A stretch of DNA of 64,000 bases from contig CALSVI010000002.1 of the NCBI GenBank assembly GCA_943840615.1, forward strand, positions 62,001 through 126,000, read 5' to 3'. This DNA is from an uncultured Luminiphilus sp. (GTDB lineage: Bacteria > Pseudomonadota > Gammaproteobacteria > Pseudomonadales > Halieaceae). Both the position numbers and the translations under genes were made by a program. This document shows, piece after piece, positions 16,084 through 29,077 of the stretch (position 1 is the stretch's first letter; every line of letters starts with the position of its first letter). Below the pieces are notes generated by a model. It was not told the DNA's origin and ran no database searches. It was given only the letters and a program-made list of their open reading frames with translations.

Positions 16084-17748
16084 GTGGCGCAATACGTCTA
16101 CACCATGAACCGGGTCGGTAAAATCGTCCCGCCAAAAAAAGAAATTCTGAAGGATATTTCCCTGTCTTTCTTCCCGGGCGCCAAAATCGGCGTGCTGGGC
16201 TTAAACGGGGCAGGCAAATCCACGCTCTTGAAAATCATGGCCGGTATCGACACGGACATACTGGGTGAAGCGCGTCCACAGTCGGATATCAAGATCGGCT
16301 ATCTGTCTCAGGAGCCGCAGCTCAACTCGGACAAAAATGTGCGCGGCAACGTGGAGGAAGGCGTGCAGGAAGCGATCGACGCGCTCGCTGGTCTGGAACA
16401 ACTCTACGCCGACTATGCAGAGCCCGATGCCGATTTTGATGCGTTAGCCAAGGAGCAAGCCAGACTGGAGGACGTCATTCAGGCAAAGGACGCGCACAAT
16501 CTCGATACGCGGCTCGACATTGCGGCCAATGCTCTGCGGCTCCCCCCCTGGGAGGCAAATGTCGATCTGCTCTCCGGCGGCGAGAAGCGGCGGGTAGCGC
16601 TCGCGCGACTGCTACTTTCGGAGCCGGACATGCTGCTCCTCGACGAGCCGACAAACCACCTCGACGCCGAGTCAGTGGCATGGCTTGAGCATTTTCTGGA
16701 GGACTTCCCCGGCACGGTCGTTGCCATTACCCACGACCGTTACTTTCTCGACAACGCTGCCGGCTGGATTCTGGAGCTGGACCGTGGCCGCGGCATTCCC
16801 TACGAGGGGAACTACTCGGCGTGGCTAGAGACCAAGGAAAAACGTTTAGAGCAAGAGCAACGTCAGGAGGCCTCGCATCAGAAAGCGATCAAGGCCGAGC
16901 TGGAATGGGTGCGCTCCAACCCGAAGGGCCGGCAGGCTAAAAACAAGGCGAGACTGCAGCGATTTGAGGAGCTCAACTCACAGGAATTCCAGACGCGTAA
17001 TGAGACAAACGAGATCTACATTCCGCCGGGCGCAAGGCTGGGTGACAAGGTGATCGAAGTGAGCGGCTTACGGAAAACCTTTGACGAGCGGCTATTATTT
17101 GAAGACGTCAGCTTCGTCGTGCCCAAAGGCAGTATCGTTGGCATTATCGGTGCTAACGGCATGGGCAAGTCGACGCTGTTCCGAATTCTCATGGGCCTCG
17201 AGACGCCTGATGGTGGCAACGTCACCGTCGGCGATACAGTGGAACTTGGCTACGTAGATCAATCCCGTGATGACCTCGATGGCAGTAAGACCGTCTGGGA
17301 AGAAGTATCGGATGGTCTCGATATTATCCGGATCGGGAATTACGAAGTGCCCTCACGCTCCTATGTAGGCCGCTTCAATTTCAAAGGGTCCGATCAGCAA
17401 AAATTTGTCAAAGATCTCTCTGGTGGAGAGCGCAACCGCCTGCATTTGGCCAAACTCCTGAAACAAGGGGCCAATGTGCTGCTGCTAGATGAGCCCACCA
17501 ATGATCTCGACGTGGAAACGCTGCGGGCGCTCGAGGAAGCACTGCTGGCCTTTCCGGGTTCCGCGATGGTGATTTCCCACGATCGATGGTTTCTTGACCG
17601 GGTCGCCACGCACATTCTGGCCTACGAGGATGACGGGAATGTGGTTTTCCACGAGGGAAACTACTCAGAGTATGAGGAAGACCATCGTCAGCGTGTGGGT
17701 GCCGATGCCGCAGTCCCCAGCCGGGTGAAACACCGCAAACTGAAATAG
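16084..17748 (+). CDS. ettA: Energy-dependent translational throttle protein EttA (ABC-F)
   Basis: EttA binds the ribosomal E site and gates entry into elongation according to the ATP/ADP ratio. Two ABC cassettes are present without membrane spans. The Walker A motifs are GLNGAGKST and GANGMGKST, and the signatures are LSGGEKRRVALA and LSGGERNRLHLA. The tail and linker match EttA, beginning QYVYTMNRVGKIVPPKKEI. It has 554 residues and a GTG start. The 159 bases between ugd and this gene show nothing recognisable. It is convergent with the PP2C gene, 3 bases apart. Confidence 0.96.
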   Translation: MAQYVYTMNRVGKIVPPKKEILKDISLSFFPGAKIGVLGLNGAGKSTLLKIMAGIDTDILGEARPQSDIKIGYLSQEPQLNSDKNVRGNVEEGVQEAIDALAGLEQLYADYAEPDADFDALAKEQARLEDVIQAKDAHNLDTRLDIAANALRLPPWEANVDLLSGGEKRRVALARLLLSEPDMLLLDEPTNHLDAESVAWLEHFLEDFPGTVVAITHDRYFLDNAAGWILELDRGRGIPYEGNYSAWLETKEKRLEQEQRQEASHQKAIKAELEWVRSNPKGRQAKNKARLQRFEELNSQEFQTRNETNEIYIPPGARLGDKVIEVSGLRKTFDERLLFEDVSFVVPKGSIVGIIGANGMGKSTLFRILMGLETPDGGNVTVGDTVELGYVDQSRDDLDGSKTVWEEVSDGLDIIRIGNYEVPSRSYVGRFNFKGSDQQKFVKDLSGGERNRLHLAKLLKQGANVLLLDEPTNDLDVETLRALEEALLAFPGSAMVISHDRWFLDRVATHILAYEDDGNVVFHEGNYSEYEEDHRQRVGADAAVPSRVKHRKLK

Positions 17749-17751
17749 AGC

Positions 17752-18576
17752 TCAGTCGGGGTAGACCCTCGGCAAATCGGCCGGGTCTCCGTCCGGCCCC
17801 GACCAGCGTGCCAGGATCAGCGTCACATTATCGCTGGGGCGCTTTGCCAGCGTCGCCTCCATAACCTTGCGTGTGGCGGCCTCTGCGTTTGCGACAACGG
17901 TGAGGAGACTGCAGATCTCCTCCGCACTAAGGGTATTGGTGACGCCATCAGAAGCCAGCATCAGCCATTCTCCAGAGCGCAAAACGCCCTGGTTTCGCCC
18001 GAGCCGCAGCTCTCCTACCGGCGTCACACCCAGCGCCTGGGTCAGGACATGTTTACGCGGTTGCTCCCTAGCGCCAGACGCAGTCTGAATTCCCTGACTC
18101 GACCATTCGGCTACCTCGGAGTGATCGCGCGTCAGCCGGTAACAGCAGCCTGACCAGTAACTGCGCGCACTGCTGTCTCCCACCCAGACCAACTGGAAGC
18201 GCGAATCTGACCACTGCGCGGCTACGATCGTCGAGCCCATGCCGCCCGTTACTGCTCTGAGCCTGGCCTCCTTTGCGATCGCCGCGGAGGACCCGCTTAC
18301 GGCACGTTCCAAAGGTAACCCCGCGAGCAAGTCGCTATGCGTGGACTGGCAGGCCAATTCGGCGGCCAGCCCCCCCCCCTTCAGACCACCCACGCCGTCA
18401 GCGACAAGGAGCAGGTGATGCGCGGGGTCCACTAAAAACCGGTCCTGATTCTCCTGTCGCCCTCCCCGATGCGTCATCGCCGCGACATCGAGCGCTGATG
18501 ACAGCATTTGGCAGTGATAAGGCCGATCTGACTCAGCCTCGCCGGAGCAGTGCACTGCTGTTGGGTTAGCGGGCAT
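17752..18576 (-). CDS. PP2C-family protein serine/threonine phosphatase
   Basis: This is a metal-dependent PPM/PP2C phosphatase expected to reverse Ser/Thr phosphorylation in the cytoplasm. All metal-binding aspartate motifs are present: RGGRQENQDRF, LLVADGVGG, GMGSTIVAAQW, WVGDSSARSYW, LMLASDGVTN and PSDNVTLILARW. No membrane span is visible. The start is uncertain (18588 GTG, 18576 ATG or 18507 ATG); residues before about 18490 lie outside the conserved domain. It is the last gene of a same-strand run with a kinase, a caspase-like gene and a surface protein, so it probably counteracts that kinase. Confidence 0.88.
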   Translation of the reverse strand: MPANPTAVHCSGEAESDRPYHCQMLSSALDVAAMTHRGGRQENQDRFLVDPAHHLLLVADGVGGLKGGGLAAELACQSTHSDLLAGLPLERAVSGSSAAIAKEARLRAVTGGMGSTIVAAQWSDSRFQLVWVGDSSARSYWSGCCYRLTRDHSEVAEWSSQGIQTASGAREQPRKHVLTQALGVTPVGELRLGRNQGVLRSGEWLMLASDGVTNTLSAEEICSLLTVVANAEAATRKVMEATLAKRPSDNVTLILARWSGPDGDPADLPRVYPD

Positions 18577-18597
18577 AGCGCTCAGCACTATGAGACG

Positions 18598-20986
18598 TCA
18601 GAACGCCTGGTCCCAGCGCAAGCCGAGGGTGTAACCCCGGTGCTGGTAGCCGTCGCGGGCAGCGGTAATGCGATAGCTGGCAAAACCCGAAAAGCCATAG
18701 GAAAATTGGCCGGCGAGGTTAAATGAGGCATCCCAGTATTGCCCATCCAGAACTTCGCGCCGGATACCCATCTCTTGCCCAAACCCTTCAAGATCATTCG
18801 CCAGAAGCGTCGAAGTGACGGAATCACCGCGATTGGATTCACTCACAAAGTGGAGCATCACTCCCGGAACTAACACACCAAAATCGGTCAGCCACGCGTA
18901 ATCAGCCTGCAGGCCAAGGCGCAATATCGATTTCTCAAAACGACTTCCACCGACCGCCATCTCCCACGCCTTTGAAGAGCCTTCCAGCGCCTCTTCTTGA
19001 TAAGCGTCAATCTCACCGTCGAGGTAGAAATAGGATGCCGTCGGACCAAGACGCCAACCCGCGGTATTGAGCATATACCCCAGATTGACCGCCGCCGTCA
19101 TGTGGTCGCCTCCAGTAGCACCGCGGTAATCTGAAGAAAAGCTTCCGCCCGCGTCAACGTACGCCACTTGTCGACTCATGTCGTAATCGTCGTCCGCCCA
19201 TCCCAATTGCAAATCGAGAAAGCCTGCATCGCTGAACTGCCAGCCGCCGTAAAGCGTCAAAGCGGTGGTCTCCGAGTCACTTGTCGCATCGGCATAGTCG
19301 GTCTCAGTTTCTGCGATGCTGACCGCCAGACCTGCGTATAAATCAGGGGTAAAACGATAGTCAGCACCCGCAGTGAGTGACCAGGAGTCCTCGTCGTACT
19401 GGCGACGGGCGTCTGTATCGCGCCGCTCAGTCACATCCAGATCGCCCTGCAGATAAACACCCCAATTGCCAAAATCAGGGACCTAACTCGCCCATTCCTG
19501 CCTGGTCAGCGGCCTCCTCAAGTAACGCCCCGGGTAAGGCCTCACCGGCAAAATTCAGGGACAGCCCCGCGAGGCTCACGCCCCGGCCCCCGCCACTCTT
19601 GATTCGGCCTAGTCGTTGAGTAAGTTGTTGGTGATGCCGGGAGGCTGTCTCGATGACCGCGTCAATGCGGTTAGCCAATAGCTGTGGCGAAATGCCTGCA
19701 AAGCGGCTACCTGTTGATCTGAGGAGCTATCACTCGACTTTAAACTGCACACGCTGCGAGCAGATCTTGCTGACCTGCCGTCAGTGCTTGCTGATCTCCC
19801 TCCATAATCAACCGAGGGCAGGCATCATCGATAGCCCCGCACAGAGTTCGATCGTCCTCAGAAAGACCTCTAGCTCTACAAGATCCTCGCCTAGATTAGC
19901 CAGCTCTTCTGCACCACAGAGCAACCGTTGTTCATCTGCCTATTTCCCGTGTCTGTCGCAACGCAGCTGTCGCTTGAATTAGGAACTCCGTCACCATCAT
20001 CGTCTCGCTGCCCTCGCTGCAACCGATGGAATCAGCCGATTCGCCGGTGGGCGTTGCAGGACACTCGTCAAGCAAATCGCTAACACCATCCAAATCTGTA
20101 TCTTTTTGATGATGTGCAGCAACCTTCAGCATCCACGCTTCTCCCCGGCGTCGCCGGACAGAGGTCGACGCGTCCTTAACGCCATCCGAATCCGTGTCCT
20201 TCTGCGATGCTGAACAACCGTTCGATTCGACCAATTCCCCAGCAAGCGTAGCTGGGGCACTGATCGGCAGTGTTACCGACCCGTCGCGTCCTCATCGATT
20301 TGCGCCTCAGAACAACCTTTTTTGTTAACGATCTCTCCGGCATTGGTATCTGGGCATTGATCGCGCTGATCGACCACACCGTCGTCGTCCGTATCAATTT
20401 CATCCTCTGCGCAGCCGTTAGCATCAATCTCCAACCCTGGTGTGGCACTGTATAGGGGCACAGATCAGTATCATCTGGCACCCCATCCCAGTCTGTATCA
20501 GCTGGGAGGTCAGATCCTGAGTCGAACCTCACAACCCGAGCCATCGACGACAGTCACCCGCGGCGTACTTGGACACTGGTCTACACCGTCGTAGACGCCG
20601 TCACCGTCGCTATCATTGTTCAACGGCAGTTTTTCGAAAGCAGCGTTTAGGGTCGTAGGCGGAATCGAGCTTGGGTATGGCCCAAGCACCAACACGAGAT
20701 TGCTGCCCTGCGGGCTGCCGTCCACAGTCCAACCTGCAAATTGGTAGCCGCTATCGGGGCTTGCAGTGAAGGTGGCAGAACCGCCTTGAGTATCAGTCAC
20801 ATAGTCAGTGACACACGAATCCCGACAATTTTGTAGATAGTCAATCTCCCTGACGCCTGCGATGTTGACCGTTCCAGTGTCCACAGGCGATACATTTACC
20901 GTAATCTGCGCCTGCGACATCGCCGATAATAGAACCCCACTGGCGGCCGCCAGTGACAATAAAATTGTTCGACTAATGCGGTACAA
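18598..20986 (-). pseudogene. Secreted Ca-binding-repeat/autotransporter beta-barrel protein, broken by about a dozen frameshifts
   Basis: Read through the frames, this gene encodes in order: a signal peptide (LLSLAAASGVLLSAMSQAQ), a bacterial repeat domain with GYQFAGWTVDG, and several thrombospondin type 3-like Ca-binding repeats. Examples of the repeats are NDSDGDGVYDGVDQCP, ADTDWDGVPDDTDLCP, IDTDDDGVVDQRDQCP and KDTDLDGVSDLLDECP. A helical region with LTAGQQDLLAAC follows, and the C-terminal autotransporter-type barrel ends in WDQAF. The first 460 and last 840 bases are open, but between about 19478 and 20525 the frame changes roughly twelve times. The start is TTG with GGAG nine bases upstream, overlapping the caspase-like gene by 14 bases. 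It may be a decayed gene or a badly sequenced one; motif preservation favours sequencing error. Confidence 0.75.
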
Positions 20987-22520
20987 AATAAAAGTCTCCT
21001 ACGGCGTCACCGGCGCCTTTAATCGCCTTAAATTGCACGTCCAGGGCACCCGGGTTCAACTGCTCACGAATCGCGAGGAACAGCGCCGGGGCTGGGAGTA
21101 TTTCGTTATTAGCCTCAAGCGCCTCTAATACAGCATCCGCAAAAATCGACTGATCACCCGACTGATCCGATACCGGAAAATCTTGCCCCGAACTGATCAA
21201 CAGACGGGACCGATTCTCGTGCCGAATCGCCAGATAGCGGTCACTGGTAAATAATTCTGGCGAGACAGCAAGGAAAAAAGTGGGCGTGTCCGCAAGCAAA
21301 CCCGAGAAGGATGAGTCAGCAATCACAAGAACCCGGCGCGCTGGCAGGCGTGCGAGATGCGCACCAATTTGCCCCACCGGAACCCAGTACGTGTCGATAG
21401 GGGGGCGCTGTGCGTTGACCGGCAACCAGTAACCGATCTGCATCTGCTCGTCAGTGCGCTCGTTGCCATACCCTGCGTAATAAATCAGCAAGTTGTCATC
21501 GGGACCCAATGTTTCGTGTAACTGATTGAGCGCAGCCAACACACTAATGTTGTCCGCGTTGTCGATACGGGTGACTTCGAAGCCGTAACGCTCCACAAGC
21601 ACTTCGCTCACCCGCCGCGCATCATTCTTAGCGCTCGACAGCGCTGTCAAGAACTGGTGCTCGGAATTGCCAATGACGAGCGCAAAGTAGCGTCCGTAAT
21701 CACGCCCGTCTGAAGACACAGATCCCGCATTGCCCAGCGATGCCACTACCGGCAGTACTTCCCCCGAGACATTCACGGGGGAATCCTCAATGCGCGCAGC
21801 AAGGGAATCGCGATCCGCCTCGGCAGCCTCTGCCCGAGCAGCCATCGCTGCGGCACGGTCCGTCTCACTTTGCAGCGCCTCGCGGGCTGCGTCTGCAGCA
21901 GCGGCGAGCTGCGCATTCTCGGCCTGCACGGCCGCCAGGGCGGCTTGTGTATCGGCGGCGGCAGCGGTCGACTCAGCCTGAGTCAATAGGGCTTCCCCGT
22001 CGGGAATGCCCCAGGCCTGTCGGTATAGATTGATTGCCATGACCGGATCACGCCCAACACCGCGGCCGGTATCGTAAAGGCTGGCGAGATTCACCATCGC
22101 GGGCTTGAAATCTGCAGCAACCGCTCGCTCATACCAATACTTGGCCATCACATAGTCGGACGCGCGGCCCAACCCTTGCTCAAAGATCTCTCCAACATAG
22201 TTCATCGCCTGAGCATCGCCGGTAGAGGCGGCGTCGAGCCAGACAGTGAGAGCGCTTTGATAATCAGCGCGGTCCCATTGGGTGTACTCGCCACCGCGGA
22301 TGGCACAGTCCTGTGCCGTGGTGCGAATCGGTCGTCGGGGTGTCATGTAAGTCGTGTTGCCCAGCCGTCTTACCTGACCCGGCAGCAGACAGTCGACAAT
22401 ATAAAACTTAGCCGCCTCGGCTTCGGCAGCAGTTTGCTCCTCGGCCAGGGGTTTGAAGTTAATAGCGGCACTCACACTCAATGCCACCACCAGTAACGCG
22501 CGATTCCATCCTTGGGGCAT
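20973..22520 (-). CDS. Exported caspase-fold (C14-like) protein with Sel1 repeats, catalytic dyad lost
   Basis: The 515-residue protein has an N-terminal hydrophobic export segment (residues 7-24) and Sel1-type repeats at about 99-170. An Ala/Glu-rich coiled coil follows at 176-246, then a caspase-family domain from about 275 (YFALVIGNSEHQFLTALSSAKNDA). Family members have a catalytic histidine in YAGHG and a cysteine in DSCYSG. Here the sites read YYAGYG (Tyr351) and ADSSFSG (Ser404), so both are replaced. The domain is otherwise well preserved (QIGYWLPVNA, ARRVLVIADS). It lies 59 bases after a transmembrane kinase gene and overlaps a surface-protein gene. The likely role is a non-catalytic binding or sensing module; that is inference. 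Confidence 0.85.
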   Translation of the reverse strand: MPQGWNRALLVVALSVSAAINFKPLAEEQTAAEAEAAKFYIVDCLLPGQVRRLGNTTYMTPRRPIRTTAQDCAIRGGEYTQWDRADYQSALTVWLDAASTGDAQAMNYVGEIFEQGLGRASDYVMAKYWYERAVAADFKPAMVNLASLYDTGRGVGRDPVMAINLYRQAWGIPDGEALLTQAESTAAAADTQAALAAVQAENAQLAAAADAAREALQSETDRAAAMAARAEAAEADRDSLAARIEDSPVNVSGEVLPVVASLGNAGSVSSDGRDYGRYFALVIGNSEHQFLTALSSAKNDARRVSEVLVERYGFEVTRIDNADNISVLAALNQLHETLGPDDNLLIYYAGYGNERTDEQMQIGYWLPVNAQRPPIDTYWVPVGQIGAHLARLPARRVLVIADSSFSGLLADTPTFFLAVSPELFTSDRYLAIRHENRSRLLISSGQDFPVSDQSGDQSIFADAVLEALEANNEILPAPALFLAIREQLNPGALDVQFKAIKGAGDAVGDFYFVPH

Positions 22521-22579
22521 GGTTTTCCCTACCGTATTGGTCGGCCGTCTTTCAGGATACGACTTCCGCGACCGCGGCG

Positions 22580-23995
22580 CTACCGCACAAACTGCGCCGC
22601 GGTGACGGCGCTTACAAGTTGCTCCAGCTCGCTCTGCTGCGCCAGGTAAGCATTGCTCTGCATGGCTTCAAGCGAAGGCAGCAGCAGTGCCGCCATCTCT
22701 GGGCTGCGGGCATCCGCAAATAGCACCGCGACCCGCTCTACCATGTTGTCCAAAGCTTCCACCGCGTCGGGGTTCCAAGGGTGCAGTAACCAGGCAGCGT
22801 CAAAATAGCGCAGGGCGCCGTCGATATCGCTGATGTCGAGGTGCGCGTAGCCCTGATCAAGGCTGTTACTGAAATCCAGCTGAGTCGCTACGGGTAACTC
22901 AGAAAACGGCACCTCGGGTCCAACCGGCGCGAGAGATTGGTAGACCCAACCGCCAGAGACCAGCACCAGCAGCACCGCCAAGCCCGCCAGTAACCGGTTT
23001 CGCTGTGCACTGCCCTGAAACAGGACCAAAAATTGACCCGCATCCTGCGGTCGAGCCTCGCGAGTGAGTCGCAGTGCCCGCAATAAAGCCTTTCGTTCCC
23101 GCTCACGCCAGGCCTTGGCCGTGCCAGTCGGTGTGAGGTTTTCGGTTAACGCTGCATCCGCCGACGCCCCCCCATAAGCATGCTCAGCTGTAAACAGCCA
23201 CCAACCAATAAGGCCGAGAGCATAGACATCGTCCGCAGGGTGGGGTTCGGTGTTGCCGATCAGCATCTCGATCGACGCAAAACGTCGTGTCAGAGCGCCC
23301 AGACGACCCGCATCATATTGATCCGTCTGCTCTGCCTCCTGAGTGAGCCGTGCAATACCAAAATCGAGCACCTTGACGCGACCTGAGGCCGTGACAAATA
23401 CGTTGTCGGGCTTCAGGTCGCAGTGCACCACTCCCTGACTGTGTGCATAAGCCAAACCTTCAGCAAATTGTCGCACCAGATCAGACCGGTCAAAGGCCTT
23501 ACCCAAGCGTTGCTCCAATCGGTCCAACCGCGATAACGGCTCGCCGTCCAAGAGTTCCATAGTCATGAACACACGATCGCCATCGCGATCAAAGTCATGC
23601 ACGGTAATCACGTTGGGGTGCGCCAACTGCTGGGTTTTGCGCGCCTCGCGCTGCAAAGAAACCAGCGCATCCGGATGCTCGCTAAAGGCCGCACTCAAGA
23701 ACTTGATGGCTACGTGACTGTTCGGGTCATCGGCTTCGGCGCGTCGTAAATCGATCGCCGTAAAGACGGTGCCCATTCCACCGGCGCCCAGCTGCTCAAG
23801 TAGGACAAAACGGTCGCGGATCAGCAAACCCTCATCACGCGCACGACCGACGAGCACCTCAAGATTGTCTTGTGCCTGATGCATATCAAGCGAGGCAGTC
23901 AACGCTCCTCGCTGAATTCGGCCCGCCACTTCGGTCACAAAAACCTCGGTCGGATCTGAGGAGATCTGAGTGAGATCCTCGGAGGGATCGCTCAC
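22580..23995 (-). CDS. Transmembrane Hanks-type serine/threonine protein kinase
   Basis: The kinase domain spans about residues 64-325, with glycine loop LGAGGMGTVF (69-78), VAIKFL lysine 98, HCDLKPDNV (191-199) and DFG (211-213). The HRD arginine is a cysteine, making it a non-RD kinase, and the APE motif is degenerate (ASIEMLIG). One membrane span follows at about 335-354. The remaining 115 or so residues, predicted periplasmic, look TPR-like and helical. The GTG start overlaps the radA stop as GTGA. The exported caspase-like, surface and PP2C genes follow on the same strand. Confidence 0.9.
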   Translation of the reverse strand: MSDPSEDLTQISSDPTEVFVTEVAGRIQRGALTASLDMHQAQDNLEVLVGRARDEGLLIRDRFVLLEQLGAGGMGTVFTAIDLRRAEADDPNSHVAIKFLSAAFSEHPDALVSLQREARKTQQLAHPNVITVHDFDRDGDRVFMTMELLDGEPLSRLDRLEQRLGKAFDRSDLVRQFAEGLAYAHSQGVVHCDLKPDNVFVTASGRVKVLDFGIARLTQEAEQTDQYDAGRLGALTRRFASIEMLIGNTEPHPADDVYALGLIGWWLFTAEHAYGGASADAALTENLTPTGTAKAWRERERKALLRALRLTREARPQDAGQFLVLFQGSAQRNRLLAGLAVLLVLVSGGWVYQSLAPVGPEVPFSELPVATQLDFSNSLDQGYAHLDISDIDGALRYFDAAWLLHPWNPDAVEALDNMVERVAVLFADARSPEMAALLLPSLEAMQSNAYLAQQSELEQLVSAVTAAQFVR

Positions 23996-25369
23996 TGGCA
24001 GGCCTCTAACGCCTCGGCGAGGCGCGAGACCGGAATGACCTTAAGGCCGGATATGGCCTTTTTGGGCGCATTGCCCTTGGGCACAATGGCGAGCTTGAAA
24101 CCGTGCTTGGCCGCCTCAGACAGGCGCTCCTGTCCACTGGCCACGGGTCGAATTTCCCCCGACAGACCCACCTCGCCAAAAACCACCCAATCCCGTGGCA
24201 AGGGTCGATCCCGAAGACTCGATACCACCGCGAGCAGCAGTGCCAAATCGGCCGACGTCTCCATCACCCGGACACCGCCCACAACGTTGGCAAATACATC
24301 CTGATCACCCACCTGAATCCCGCCGTGGCGATGCAGCACTGCCAGCAACATTGCCAGCCGATTCTGCTCAAAACCCACGGTGACGCGCCGGGGATTGCCC
24401 AGAGAACTGTCATCCACCAGCGCCTGTATCTCAACAGTAACAGGGCCGGGTACCCTCCCAGACGACCACAACGGTGGTGCCGGGCGCAGTATGTTCCGAA
24501 CGATCGAGGAAGATCGCTGAGGGGTTAGTCACTTCGCGCATACCGGTGTCAGTCATGGCGAAAATACCCAGCTCATTGACCGCGCCAAAGCGATTTTTCT
24601 GGCCCCGCAAAGTCCGGTATCGGGAGTCGTGATCGCCCTCAAGCAAAATGGAGCAGTCGATCATGTGCTCGAGCACCTTGGGGCCGGCAAGACTGCCATC
24701 TTTGGTCACGTGGCCCACCAGAATCAGCACGGTACCCGTCTGCTTCGCGTAACGCGTCAGTTGTGCCGCGCAATCACGCACCTGCGACACACTCCCCGGA
24801 GCCGAGGTTAGCGTCTCGCTGTGCACCACCTGAATCGAGTCGACCACCAAAATTTTGGGCTTCAGGGATTCCGCCGAAGACAGAATCGTATCGACATCAG
24901 TCTCTGCCATGAGCTGCAGCTGATCAGTGGGCAGGCTGAGACGGTTGGCACGCATCGCAATCTGCTCCGGAGATTCTTCCCCGGTGACGTACAGCGCAGA
25001 GTGTTCCGACGCAAGGTAACAAAGCGTTTGCAACAGCAGTGTACTTTTGCCGGCTCCCGGGTGGCCGCCAATCAGTATGCTGGAGCCCGGTATAAAACCG
25101 CCTCCCAACACCCGATCAAACTCATCAAAACCCGAGCTCAGGCGCGGCAAGTCCACCACGGCCACCTCCTCGAGTCGCTTTACGGTGGCCACGCTGCCCG
25201 CAAAACCGGTTCGACCTGTCGCGCGCTTACCTGATGATTTTCCCGCAGGCGCGCTGAGGCGAATTTCCGACAGGGTATTCCACGCATGACACTCACCGCA
25301 CTGACCCTGCCACTTGGGGAAATCTGCCCCACAGTCATTGCAGACAAATGCGGTTTTTGCCTTCGCCAC
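23992..25369 (-). CDS. radA: DNA repair protein RadA (one frameshift)
   Basis: RadA is a RecA-like branch-migration ATPase acting in recombination. The N-terminal zinc finger has cysteines at 10, 13, 24 and 27. Walker A is GGHPGAGKST (101-110) and the RadA signature is GQKNRFGAVNELG. The C-terminal Lon-protease-like domain (VTVEIQALVDDSSLGNPRR, VVGGVRVMETSADLA) is in the next frame. The join is at about 24442, where one extra base follows the codons for EGTRP; the length of 1378 nt fits. It overlaps the kinase gene by 4 bases, so it may head that transcript. Confidence 0.93.
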
Positions 25370-25458
25370 GCGAAACTCTCCGGAAACTGATGGTAATTGC
25401 TGTATTGGTAGAGGTAAGTCGGTATCCTATCAGACCGCTTGCCCTGCACCGCATCATA

Positions 25459-26538
25459 ATGCCATCCGCTTCACTCATTCCTGATCGACAACTGACCTTC
25501 TCTCCCGAACTGGCCGAGATCATCGGGCTGGAAGAGGCGGTCTTGCTGCAAGAGCTCGGCGCACAATTGACCGACCGGGATGAATGGACCCCCCTGTCTC
25601 TGGAGTCTCTCCAGCAAAACCTCTCTTTTTGGTCGGTAGACCATATTGCCCTGCTGATCGATAAGCTGGTGACACTGGGAATCGTTAATCGGGCTCCCGG
25701 CGGCAACGCCGATACGGTTGTTCTGAGCGCAGCAGCCGCAACCAATAGCATGCAGCAAGCCACTGCGGTGACATCGCACAACTTAGCCAGTGCATCAGAC
25801 AGCCTTTGGCAACCGAGCGATGCGTTGCAGGAGCTACTGTCACTCAATCACGGCATTCCGAGGTCTTTCGTCGACCAGGCCAAAGCGCAGTTTGTCCCGG
25901 CTCAAGGGAGTGAAGTCGACACCCAATTTCGCCAATATATTTTGGGACGCTGGCGCGATACACAACGGCTCGAGACCCGCCAGCAGTCATCACAAGCGTT
26001 TGAAATTGCGGCCCCTGCACCATTCGGTCGAGACTGGACACCTAATCAGGATGCTCTGGAGATACTGGAACAAGCGGGTATTGATATCGTTTTTGCCGAA
26101 TCGGTGCGGTCTGAATTCATTCTTTATTGGAGTGAGCGTGGCGGTCCACCCAAGGAAGTGAACAGCCGTTTTGTAGAACACGTGCGCCGTCGCTGGCTGA
26201 AGCACACAAGCCAGATACAGCACAGCACGGAACCCACGCGCATCCCCCGCAACTGGCAGCCAGATGTATCGGTCTATGAAACACTGCGCCTCGCCGGCAT
26301 TGATGAGCAGGATGCACGCGCACTGCTACCCGAATTTGTGATGTACTGGATCGACAGCAACGAGGTCCACACCTCGTGGAATAGTAAATTCCTGCAGCAC
26401 GCCAAACGCCAATGTCGTGGCGCAGGATATGGAGATCAGGATGGCGGAGAAAAAGGACGCGGCAACGCTGGCGGAAGCCATCGCTCAAAAGACCGAAGTC
26501 TCAGCGACGACCTCACCGACACCAGCTGGGCTAACTGA
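25459..26538 (+). CDS. DnaT-like ssDNA-binding primosome protein
   Basis: The C-terminal half carries two DnaT-type DNA-binding domains with the pattern W-P-D/N, L-x3-GI-x5-A, F-x2-YW and W-x3-F-x-H-x-R. The first is WTPNQDALEILEQAGI to FVEHVRRRW, the second WQPDVSVYETLRLAGI to FLQHAKRQ. The N-terminal half resembles a winged-helix replication protein (IGLEEAVLLQELG, VDHIALLIDKLVTLGIV). The ATG at 25459 is chosen since earlier residues lack family character. The last 40 residues are Gly/Arg/Ser-rich and overlap the next gene in another frame, suggesting a frameshift at about 26412. It is divergent from radA. Confidence 0.78.
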   Translation: MPSASLIPDRQLTFSPELAEIIGLEEAVLLQELGAQLTDRDEWTPLSLESLQQNLSFWSVDHIALLIDKLVTLGIVNRAPGGNADTVVLSAAAATNSMQQATAVTSHNLASASDSLWQPSDALQELLSLNHGIPRSFVDQAKAQFVPAQGSEVDTQFRQYILGRWRDTQRLETRQQSSQAFEIAAPAPFGRDWTPNQDALEILEQAGIDIVFAESVRSEFILYWSERGGPPKEVNSRFVEHVRRRWLKHTSQIQHSTEPTRIPRNWQPDVSVYETLRLAGIDEQDARALLPEFVMYWIDSNEVHTSWNSKFLQHAKRQCRGAGYGDQDGGEKGRGNAGGSHRSKDRSLSDDLTDTSWAN

Positions 26539-27118
26539 CCCATCCGAGCCACCGGATTCGCAGCTGGTTGAGGCTATCAATCAGGTTTTTGCGCTATTTC
26601 GGCTCAACTACCACAACCAATACTACGCGGCCTGGTCAGACGCCGAGCAGGTGAAGCAGGTCAAACGGCTCTGGCTGGAGGCCCTCGATGCCTATCCGAC
26701 CGCCGTGATATTGCGCGCTGCCCAGCACGCGATCGAGCATAGCGACTATCTGCCTACTTTGAATCGAATGATTGAGGCTTGCCGACATTGCTTGAGTGAC
26801 CTTGGCCTACCCGCGCCCTACGACGCTTATCGCGAGGCCTGCCTAGCACCGTCACCCAAAACCGACGCGGCCTGGCGACACCCTGCAGTCTATTTGGCGG
26901 GACGTGACAGTGACTGGTTTTTTCTGGCTAATGAGTCGGAATCAAAGACTTGGCCTGTCTATCGTGACCACTACGAGCGATGGGTCAGCCGTGCGGCCCG
27001 CGGAGAGCCACTTGAAGGTCCCGAGCGCGTTGCGCTGACCGCGCCAGATGAAGCACTCCCGAGCAAAGACGAGCAGGTGACCCATCTCTCAAGACTGAGA
27101 AAAGAAGTGGGGCTGTAA
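26441..27118 (+). CDS. Lambda P-like replication protein (possible DnaB helicase loader)
   Basis: The 225-residue protein resembles the lambda replication protein P family. An acidic linker precedes a helical core with FALFRLNYHNQYYAAWSD, KRLWLEALDAYP and HSDYLPTLNRMIEACR. Phage P recruits host DnaB to the origin. The ATG at 26441 has GGAG six bases upstream; an in-frame GTG at 26417 is possible. It follows the DnaT-like gene and is convergent with the HPt and dnaB genes. No other phage genes are near, so it appears to be a resident chromosomal gene. Loader activity is inference. Confidence 0.7.
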   Translation: MAEKKDAATLAEAIAQKTEVSATTSPTPAGLTDPSEPPDSQLVEAINQVFALFRLNYHNQYYAAWSDAEQVKQVKRLWLEALDAYPTAVILRAAQHAIEHSDYLPTLNRMIEACRHCLSDLGLPAPYDAYREACLAPSPKTDAAWRHPAVYLAGRDSDWFFLANESESKTWPVYRDHYERWVSRAARGEPLEGPERVALTAPDEALPSKDEQVTHLSRLRKEVGL

Positions 27119-27537: not shown

Positions 27538-28869
27538 TCAATAGCCCGCATAGTCGTCCCGGGCGAGATTCTCAAAACGCGTGAATTCCCCCTGAAAGGC
27601 CAACCGGCAAGTGCCAATCGGGCCATTTCTTTGCTTGCCAATAATAATCTCTGCGACGCCTTTTTCCGGCGAGTCTTCGTGGTACACCTCGTCGCGGTAG
27701 ATAAACATCACCACATCGGCATCCTGCTCAATGGCACCGGATTCACGCAGGTCAGAATTCACAGGGCGTTTGTTGGGGCGCTGCTCCAGCGCGCGATTCA
27801 ACTGCGAGAGCGCCACCACCGGACAACGGAATTCCTTGGCGATGGCCTTCAGATTACGGGAAATCTCCGAGATCTCCGCTGTCCGGCCGTCGGCCGCTCC
27901 GGCAACGCGCATCAGCTGCAGGTAATCGACCATGATCATGGCGAGATCACCGTGTTCTCGTGACAGCCTGCGCGATCTAGCCCTGATTTCCGTAGGGGTG
28001 AGTGCCGGCGTGTCATCGATAAAGATCGAAGTGTCCTTGAGCTTCGCCATGGCGGCAGACAATTTTGGCCAGTCATCCTGCTGCAGCTTACCCGTGCGCA
28101 GTCGTGACTGATCGATTTTGCCGAGCGAGGACATCATTCTGACCACCAGCTGCTCAGCGGGCATCTCCATCGAGAAGACCAAAATCGGCTTTTCGGTATT
28201 GGCCGCGGCGTTTTCAACCAGATTCATCGCAAAACTGGTTTTACCCATAGAAGGTCGGCCCGCAACGATCACCAGGTCGGAGGGTTGCAGACCCGATGTT
28301 TTTTTATCCAGATCAATAAACCCAGTGGTCAGGCCCGTGATATCGCCGCCGGTATTGTAGAGTTCCTCAATGCGCTCAAGCGCACCGGTCAGCAGCGGCG
28401 CCATGGCGAGGGGCCCACCGGATTTAGGACCGCTCTCTGACACCGTCATGATGAGCCGCTCAGCCTCATCAACCAGCTCCTCGGCACTGCGGCCCTCGGG
28501 GTTAAAACCCGCTGTCGCAATATCCTGAGCAGCGCCAATCAGTTTGCGTAGCAGAGCACGCTCGCGCACTGCACGGGCGTAGGCGCTGACATTGGCAGCA
28601 GTCGGCGTCTGCTCGACAAGCTCTGCGAGATACGTGTGCCCTCCCGCGGCATCGAGCTCGCCGGTGGCGAGCAAACGATCGGCAACGGTAATCACATCGA
28701 TCGGTTCGTTGCGGTCAACCAAAATGGCAATCTGGCGAAAAATCGCCCGGTGTTCAGGCCGGTAGAAATCGCTGGCATCCACTAGCTCGGCAATCGCGTC
28801 CCAGCTCTCTGGCGCCAATAAAATGCCGCCAATGACCGAACGTTCAGCCTCGACCGATTGGGGTTGCAT
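27538..28869 (-). CDS. dnaB: Replicative DNA helicase DnaB
   Basis: DnaB is the hexameric 5'-3' helicase at the replication fork. The N-terminal domain begins PQSVEAERSVIGGIL. The RecA-like motor has Walker A GRPSMGKTSFAMN, MVDYLQLM (Walker B) and SQLNRALEQRPNKRP. It ends with DADVVMFIYRDEVY. The ATG at 28869 has AGGA seven bases upstream; a TTG at 28914 would add 15 residues, nearer to E. coli DnaB. It follows rplI, the usual order after the S6-S18-L9 operon, but is separated from it by a hairpin. Confidence 0.95.
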   Translation of the reverse strand: MQPQSVEAERSVIGGILLAPESWDAIAELVDASDFYRPEHRAIFRQIAILVDRNEPIDVITVADRLLATGELDAAGGHTYLAELVEQTPTAANVSAYARAVRERALLRKLIGAAQDIATAGFNPEGRSAEELVDEAERLIMTVSESGPKSGGPLAMAPLLTGALERIEELYNTGGDITGLTTGFIDLDKKTSGLQPSDLVIVAGRPSMGKTSFAMNLVENAAANTEKPILVFSMEMPAEQLVVRMMSSLGKIDQSRLRTGKLQQDDWPKLSAAMAKLKDTSIFIDDTPALTPTEIRARSRRLSREHGDLAMIMVDYLQLMRVAGAADGRTAEISEISRNLKAIAKEFRCPVVALSQLNRALEQRPNKRPVNSDLRESGAIEQDADVVMFIYRDEVYHEDSPEKGVAEIIIGKQRNGPIGTCRLAFQGEFTRFENLARDDYAGY

Positions 28870-29077
28870 GCGGATCCTGGAAATATCCGGATCCTGAGAT
28901 TTAACCGACTCCAAGGTGCCGCCTTGTCTTGTGCCTATTCGACCGGGTGGGTATCGCGAAGCGCCGATGCCCAATAACCGCCGGGCTGACTAGATTACCT
29001 GCGACCGATGCGATCCGCCAGCAAGGATCCGCCAAACGGTCAGAAGTCCCCCGGGGCAACAAGCAGGTGAGCAGACA

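Follow-up and report, generated by a model that had tools for sequence, protein, structure and literature searches.

A transmembrane kinase, a pseudocaspase and a surface barrel encoded side by side in Halieaceae: a possible cut-down form of a conserved signalling unit of the envelope

Envelope-reading Ser/Thr kinases are known mainly as controllers of type VI secretion systems (T6SS). The 64,000-nucleotide stretch of DNA analysed here (the window), from an uncultured Luminiphilus sp., carries a transmembrane kinase gene beside genes for a caspase-like protein, a surface protein and a phosphatase. This raises the question of whether the four genes form an envelope-spanning signalling unit, as a preliminary description of the sequence had suggested. 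The window lies on contig C2 of a genome (G000) that comprises 2.09 Mb in 19 contigs and is 82% complete.

All four genes are on the minus strand. The transmembrane Ser/Thr kinase (22580..23995) matches Pkinase at 5.8e-34 (Pfam). The Sel1-repeat pseudocaspase (20973..22520) has Peptidase_C14 (4.9e-15) and Sel1 (2.7e-12) matches, and a hydrophobic N-terminal stretch gives it an exported look, in line with the export signal proposed for it. The autotransporter-type surface protein gene (18598..20986) contains a PF03797 barrel (1.7e-31) and is frameshifted, and the PP2C-type phosphatase (17752..18588) matches PP2C_2 at 1.8e-10 (Pfam). Two flanking genes are placed outside the unit: radA (23992..25369, minus strand), which is also frameshifted and was recognised from open reading frames, Pfam and comparison with sister genomes, and a convergent ettA-like ABC-F gene (16084..17748, plus strand; open reading frames and Pfam). 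The ettA gene also flanks the corresponding locus in G146, G147, G148 and G152. The reported spacing is accurate: radA and the kinase gene overlap by 4 bases, the kinase and caspase genes are 59 bases apart, the caspase and surface genes overlap by 14 bases, and the short gap before the PP2C gene measures 9 bases. The five-gene run is thus real in its genes and spacing, but the surface gene and radA are not single open reading frames in the assembly. Profile searches of the 82% complete genome give one Pkinase match and one C14 match, and the two genes are adjacent. Promoter and terminator scans return matches at shuffle (chance) level. Beyond radA, DnaT-like and lambda P-like genes stand beside dnaB (25348-27118 and 27538-28974), an order kept in several relatives.

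The surface protein gene consists of pieces in different frames, with open reading frames at 20510-20986, 20176-20544, 19932-20234 and 18598-19434. The first piece comprises a predicted signal peptide, as had been claimed, and InlB-type/TSP_3 repeats, the last contains the barrel, and broken repeats lie between them. In a nucleotide alignment with the sister locus L030, eleven one-base indels, besides some longer ones, fall between about 20530 and 19480. The radA gene is split in two frames (24431-25369 and 23992-24471). In L030 the surface protein is whole (828 aa, L030:4033-6519) and radA is in one frame, starting at the contig start. In sister L070 radA is whole (458 aa), and in sister L110 the surface protein is open over the 570 aa present before the contig stops. 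Codon-model segmentation of the window shows the broken region, and is compatible with either assembly error or decay. The description of this protein as a Ca-repeat autotransporter is right as to family, with PF03797 in the window and four TSP_3 stretches in L030, and needs correction in that the gene is not one open frame in the window. Its predicted signal peptide, repeat passenger and C-terminal barrel resemble those of other PF03797 autotransporters; signal and barrel are in different frames in the window and in one polypeptide in L030. It differs from these autotransporters in being tied to a kinase-caspase pair. The passenger varies among lineages (TSP_3, InlB B-repeat, Calx-beta or Ig-like), while the barrel is common to them, which would suit a sensor whose outer portion changes.

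The kinase domain covers residues 64-287 and is predicted to be cytoplasmic. Hydropathy places a single hydrophobic span at about residues 335-353, followed by a tail, and the alignment of relatives shows the catalytic motifs intact; motifs, span and tail all agree with the preliminary description. The tail has a conserved VPF..LP motif (alignment A2) and a weak similarity to TPR_16 that is below the cut-off (E 0.056). Pfam scans of the whole window kinase, and of its tail alone, give no vWA match.

Homologues of the caspase occur in 45 of 140 genomes of the family (E 1e-10, the weakest of them matching in the Sel1 part only), in 52 of 390 of the order (E 1e-30) and in 25 of 370 of the class (E 1e-40), G000 being included each time. 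The neighbourhoods cover 20 of the 45 other-family genomes in the order list and 20 of the 24 genomes other than G000 in the class list. After 10 of 63 caspase rows were dropped for a short flank or a short protein, 53 loci including the window were counted. Within 5 kb of the caspase gene these contain a kinase (45 loci), a barrel (32), a hydrolase (29), an FHA protein (11), a PP2C (10), a conduit marker (8) and TagH (6). Genes were called as longest open reading frames, which missed the caspase of G145 and the kinases of G048 and G058, so two of the eight loci without a kinase label do have a kinase beside the caspase. At the class level, the kinase is nearby in 14 of 20 loci, the barrel in 13 and the hydrolase in 10. 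The precise order kinase-caspase-surface-PP2C is present only in the window and L030 among the loci examined.

The density of these genes was compared near and far from caspase genes, an imperfect control, the far set being everything beyond 5 kb in the fetched loci, which were chosen around caspase genes, plus the rest of the window. The kinase reaches 0.69 per 10 kb near and 0.09 far (about 7-fold), while the barrel (0.52 vs 0.03) and the hydrolase (0.49 vs 0.03) are enriched 18- to 20-fold. PP2C and FHA genes show no enrichment, with near and far densities alike; the far set is biased here by conduit operons that had been fetched deliberately. General membership of PP2C and FHA in the unit was rejected on this result, the near density being no higher than the far. 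PP2C relatives are present in 55 of the 140 family genomes. The neighbour counts and the density control indicate that the association is not due to chance, and a conserved partnership of kinase, caspase, barrel and hydrolase is well supported. The co-occurrence of four gene families foreseen in the preliminary description accordingly stands for the kinase, caspase and barrel, which are neighbours in family, order and class, and fails for PP2C, which is found in 10 of 53 loci. Independence from radA is borne out, as the kinase-caspase-barrel sets of relatives are mostly without radA alongside. The genes are not scattered in relatives, an outcome that had been named as speaking against a unit; the kinase is near the caspase in the great majority of loci.

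The hydrolase is encoded by a gene of about 280 codons, usually between the kinase and caspase genes and on the opposite strand. Its alpha/beta-hydrolase matches are weak and mostly under Pfam cut-offs. GxSxG is present in all 24 members of its cluster; 17 of them, read from uncurated starts, also have a lipobox-like motif. In the window lineage no hydrolase gene lies between kinase and caspase, the window locus having only the short intergenic gap there. The remaining proteins are constrained between sisters: the kinase, caspase, PP2C and barrel have amino-acid identities of 82-86%, 65-75% and 79% with dS saturated or near-saturated, and synonymous sites have reached saturation for caspase, barrel and other pairs whose proteins are still 65-86% identical. 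Where dS is estimable, dN/dS between sisters is 0.037 for the kinase and 0.081 for PP2C. Purifying selection of this kind, with low dN/dS and kept protein identity, argues against long-standing decay of kinase, caspase and PP2C.

The C14 domain comprises residues 279-489 of the window caspase-like protein. Both catalytic positions are replaced, His by Tyr and Cys by Ser, in the alignment of relatives and in a profile alignment to metacaspase-4 and GSU0716, where the dyad positions align with the catalytic region. The window dyad was read with the catalytic residue identities that we assume for these two proteins. The term pseudocaspase was therefore well chosen: an orthocaspase, as an active C14 peptidase, requires the His-Cys dyad, whereas the window protein is a pseudo-orthocaspase by definition, a C14 p20 domain with Tyr-Ser in its place. 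In a tree of 57 caspase proteins, a branch supported at 100/100 separates all 12 rows without His-Cys from the remaining 45, each of which has His-Cys. Of 16 family genomes with the window caspase type, 15 have Ser, Ala or Thr in place of the cysteine when partial rows are counted; the sequence of the sixteenth, G124, ends at a contig end before the cysteine position. Seven retain the histidine (G010, G040, G042, G048, G088, G092, G145), five have Tyr there (G000, G014, G058, G061, G091) and three Trp (G146, G147, G148). Since the state of the histidine varies, loss of the cysteine is the common feature of the clade. At the class level, His-Cys is present in all 20 readable proteins of the 20 loci, one further partial protein being unreadable. 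As read from these alignments, the window pseudocaspase clade within Halieaceae has lost its catalytic cysteine. A caspase unable to cut would act as a coupler in this clade, and the intact His-Cys of the other 45 rows suggests that related units may cut something.

Pseudo-orthocaspases and repeat-bearing caspases have precedents. One survey classes 858 of 9,994 orthocaspases as pseudo, finds 90% of these in Alphaproteobacteria and Cyanobacteria, and proposes a link to photosynthesis (PMC6426788). Those of the survey are thus mostly found elsewhere, while the present clade is gammaproteobacterial, has Sel1 repeats and is tied to a kinase. Sel1 repeats are already known in bacterial caspase homologues (PMC3501461). 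A photosynthesis link was not upheld within the family: PF00124 is present in 3 of 16 pseudocaspase genomes vs 50 of 124 others, a trend in the opposite direction (Fisher p 0.11).

Relatives of the unit adjoin two kinds of machine. In four genomes of the same genus (G015, G109, G116 and G117; loci L033, L073, L074 and L075), the kinase, the hydrolase and a His-Cys caspase lie inside a T6SS locus that also holds TssJ and a TagH-type FHA protein. TssC occurs in seven of the 140 family genomes, and these four are the ones of the same genus among them. The remark that no secretion genes are present is thus true of the window and does not extend to these four genomes. The other three genomes with TssC are G046, G075 and G076, where the caspase is absent at 1e-10, so the T6SS does not need the unit. 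TssC (PF05943) was not found in the 82% complete G000.

The second machine is a putative multihaem electron conduit, a name based on its haem motifs and domains. The locus of G010 (same genus) runs kinase, kinase, hydrolase, caspase, barrel, a FAD/cNMP/Fer4 protein, a membrane protein, a decahaem protein, an HbpS-like protein, a protein with no match, a further protein with ten haem motifs, which also has LVIVD repeats, a c554-like protein with four haems, PP2C and FHA. The PP2C of relatives belongs to this multihaem-cytochrome operon. Against NCBIfam, all conduit proteins are far under cut-offs except for a doubled-CXXCH domain. A conduit operon ending in PP2C and FHA is also seen at L111/L112 (G152), L113 and L114, in addition to L032/L104 (G010). 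The conduit marker occurs in 12 of the 16 pseudocaspase genomes vs 5 of 124 other family genomes (Fisher 1.3e-10, kinship uncorrected); it is missing from the window genome, its sisters G014 and G124, and G042. The pseudocaspase pair and the conduit are together in five of the 12 (G010, G048, G146, G147, G148) and apart in seven, on different contigs or about 1 Mb away.

The interval between ettA and radA was compared among genomes. In G146 and G148 it comprises a kinase paired with a His-Cys caspase, conduit genes, and another kinase paired with a pseudocaspase. G147 has the same content, with glyA, ugd and ettA on one side and the lambda-P-like gene and dnaB on the other, its radA being unlabelled by the gene caller. 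G152 has ettA, PilZ, FHA, PP2C, seven conduit genes and radA, and the kinase and caspase are absent between them. The window interval has the kinase, caspase, surface and PP2C genes only. On the simplest reading of these gene orders, the window version would be the cytochrome-linked form minus its cytochrome genes, hydrolase and FHA gene, an apparent loss in the window lineage. The window locus is without conduit, hydrolase and FHA genes, and the apparent output genes seem to have been lost in the lineage. The conduit marker, the FAD/cNMP/Fer4 protein, is absent from G000 at E 1e-60. The one FHA match of G000 is on contig C15 (L198:395-1039) and not at the window locus. In the part of contig C15 read, no kinase or conduit gene lies beside it, and by eye two hydrophobic stretches precede the FHA domain of its product.

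These data can fairly be read as an envelope-spanning signalling unit, because kinase, caspase and barrel adjoin in many relatives, mostly without radA. The original proposal needs qualifying: the surface gene is broken here, PP2C is not a general member, and the hydrolase partner had gone unseen. We put at about even the chance that these genes are a cut-down version of a conserved signalling unit of the envelope, a surface-to-cytoplasm phosphorylation switch with the pseudocaspase as non-cutting coupler. The usual form would comprise a transmembrane Ser/Thr kinase, an exported Sel1-caspase, a GxSxG hydrolase that is usually lipoprotein-like, and an autotransporter barrel whose outer part can change. 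The localisation of the proteins, their contacts, the direction of the signal and the output are given here as we infer them. An event at the surface barrel would pass to the periplasmic Sel1-caspase protein, which would touch the outer tail of the kinase and set its activity. PP2C would reverse the phosphorylation, and the FHA protein, where present, would read it. The output may be set by the neighbouring machine, which in relatives is either a T6SS or a multihaem electron conduit, and in the Halieaceae clade to which the window caspase belongs the non-cutting caspase would serve as coupler. AlphaFold models are uninformative, with mean pLDDT 39.7 for the caspase (2 sequences) and 37.6 for the kinase (3 sequences). 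More tentatively, this could be a plug-in surface-sensing phosphorylation unit spread across Gammaproteobacteria and wired to differing contact-dependent machines, a T6SS or an extracellular electron conduit, in which the Halieaceae caspase, its cysteine lost, became a pure coupler and the window lineage retained the sensor once the conduit had gone.

Other explanations account for part of the evidence. The run may be a decaying and functionless remnant, in which the conduit was lost and the signalling genes are now following. The missing conduit, hydrolase and FHA genes, the lack of a conduit marker in G000 and the many indels in the surface gene are in line with this. We regard it as unlikely, as the kinase, caspase, PP2C and barrel remain constrained between sisters, the surface gene is whole in L030 and in L110 as far as the contig runs, and the housekeeping gene radA is broken in the same assembly, as assembly error would do. 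Homologous kinase, hydrolase and caspase in same-genus T6SS loci could instead point to an orphan T6SS threonine-phosphorylation pathway. This is improbable for a genome in which TssC was not found (82% complete), a kinase without a vWA domain and a caspase that lies outside the T6SS clade in the tree.

A caspase-driven cell death or regulated proteolysis module is suggested by the C14 domain and by the intact dyad in the rest of the tree. It is distinctly improbable for the window, where both catalytic residues are replaced, in a type whose cysteine is missing from every family genome in which that position can be read, and where PADLOC matches the kinase domain only, as a generic kinase. Anti-phage defence was also considered and rejected, PADLOC returning nothing for the caspase, the PP2C or the L030 surface protein. 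That the genes are unrelated and neighbours by chance could be argued from the restriction of the exact four-gene order to the window and L030. The neighbour counts and density control contradict this, as does the adjacency of the only kinase and caspase genes detected in G000, and it is hardly credible.

Among known systems, the reduced signalling unit preferred here is closest to PpkA/PppA/Fha1, the threonine phosphorylation pathway of the T6SS (PMC12133291 and PMC3224232), whose kinase PpkA has a vWA domain outside the cytoplasm (PMC3224232). The likeness comprises a transmembrane Ser/Thr kinase with an extracytoplasmic part predicted by hydropathy, a putative cognate PP2C encoded alongside it (window 17752-18588), and relatives of the unit within T6SS loci and beside FHA genes. 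In contrast, the window kinase tail is without the vWA domain, the unit has a caspase-type protein, a hydrolase and an autotransporter, the window locus is without an FHA gene, and no TssC was found in G000. With no vWA domain, no FHA gene at the locus and no T6SS found in the 82% complete genome, the unit would work like PpkA/PppA and not be a member of that pathway. The vWA-MoxR and related conflict systems described in PMC7159879 combine caspase and kinase domains. The window shares caspase-type and kinase domains in one system with those described there; it differs in that no vWA or MoxR domain is found in ten window proteins scanned and in the predicted export signal on its caspase. Searches of the open-licence PMC literature gave no paper on a kinase-caspase-autotransporter set and no description of the Halieaceae conduit operon.

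If the signalling reading is true, the occurrence of the unit beside both T6SS and multihaem electron-transfer genes would point to a single general sensing device whose outputs can be exchanged. The cysteine-loss clade would provide a natural comparison between versions of one device that cut and versions that do not, and would give bacterial caspase relatives a role outside cell death that is directly testable. As a separate observation on the organism, G000 has two photosynthetic reaction-centre matches, to L/M-type genes on contig C4, and the organism is probably an aerobic phototroph.
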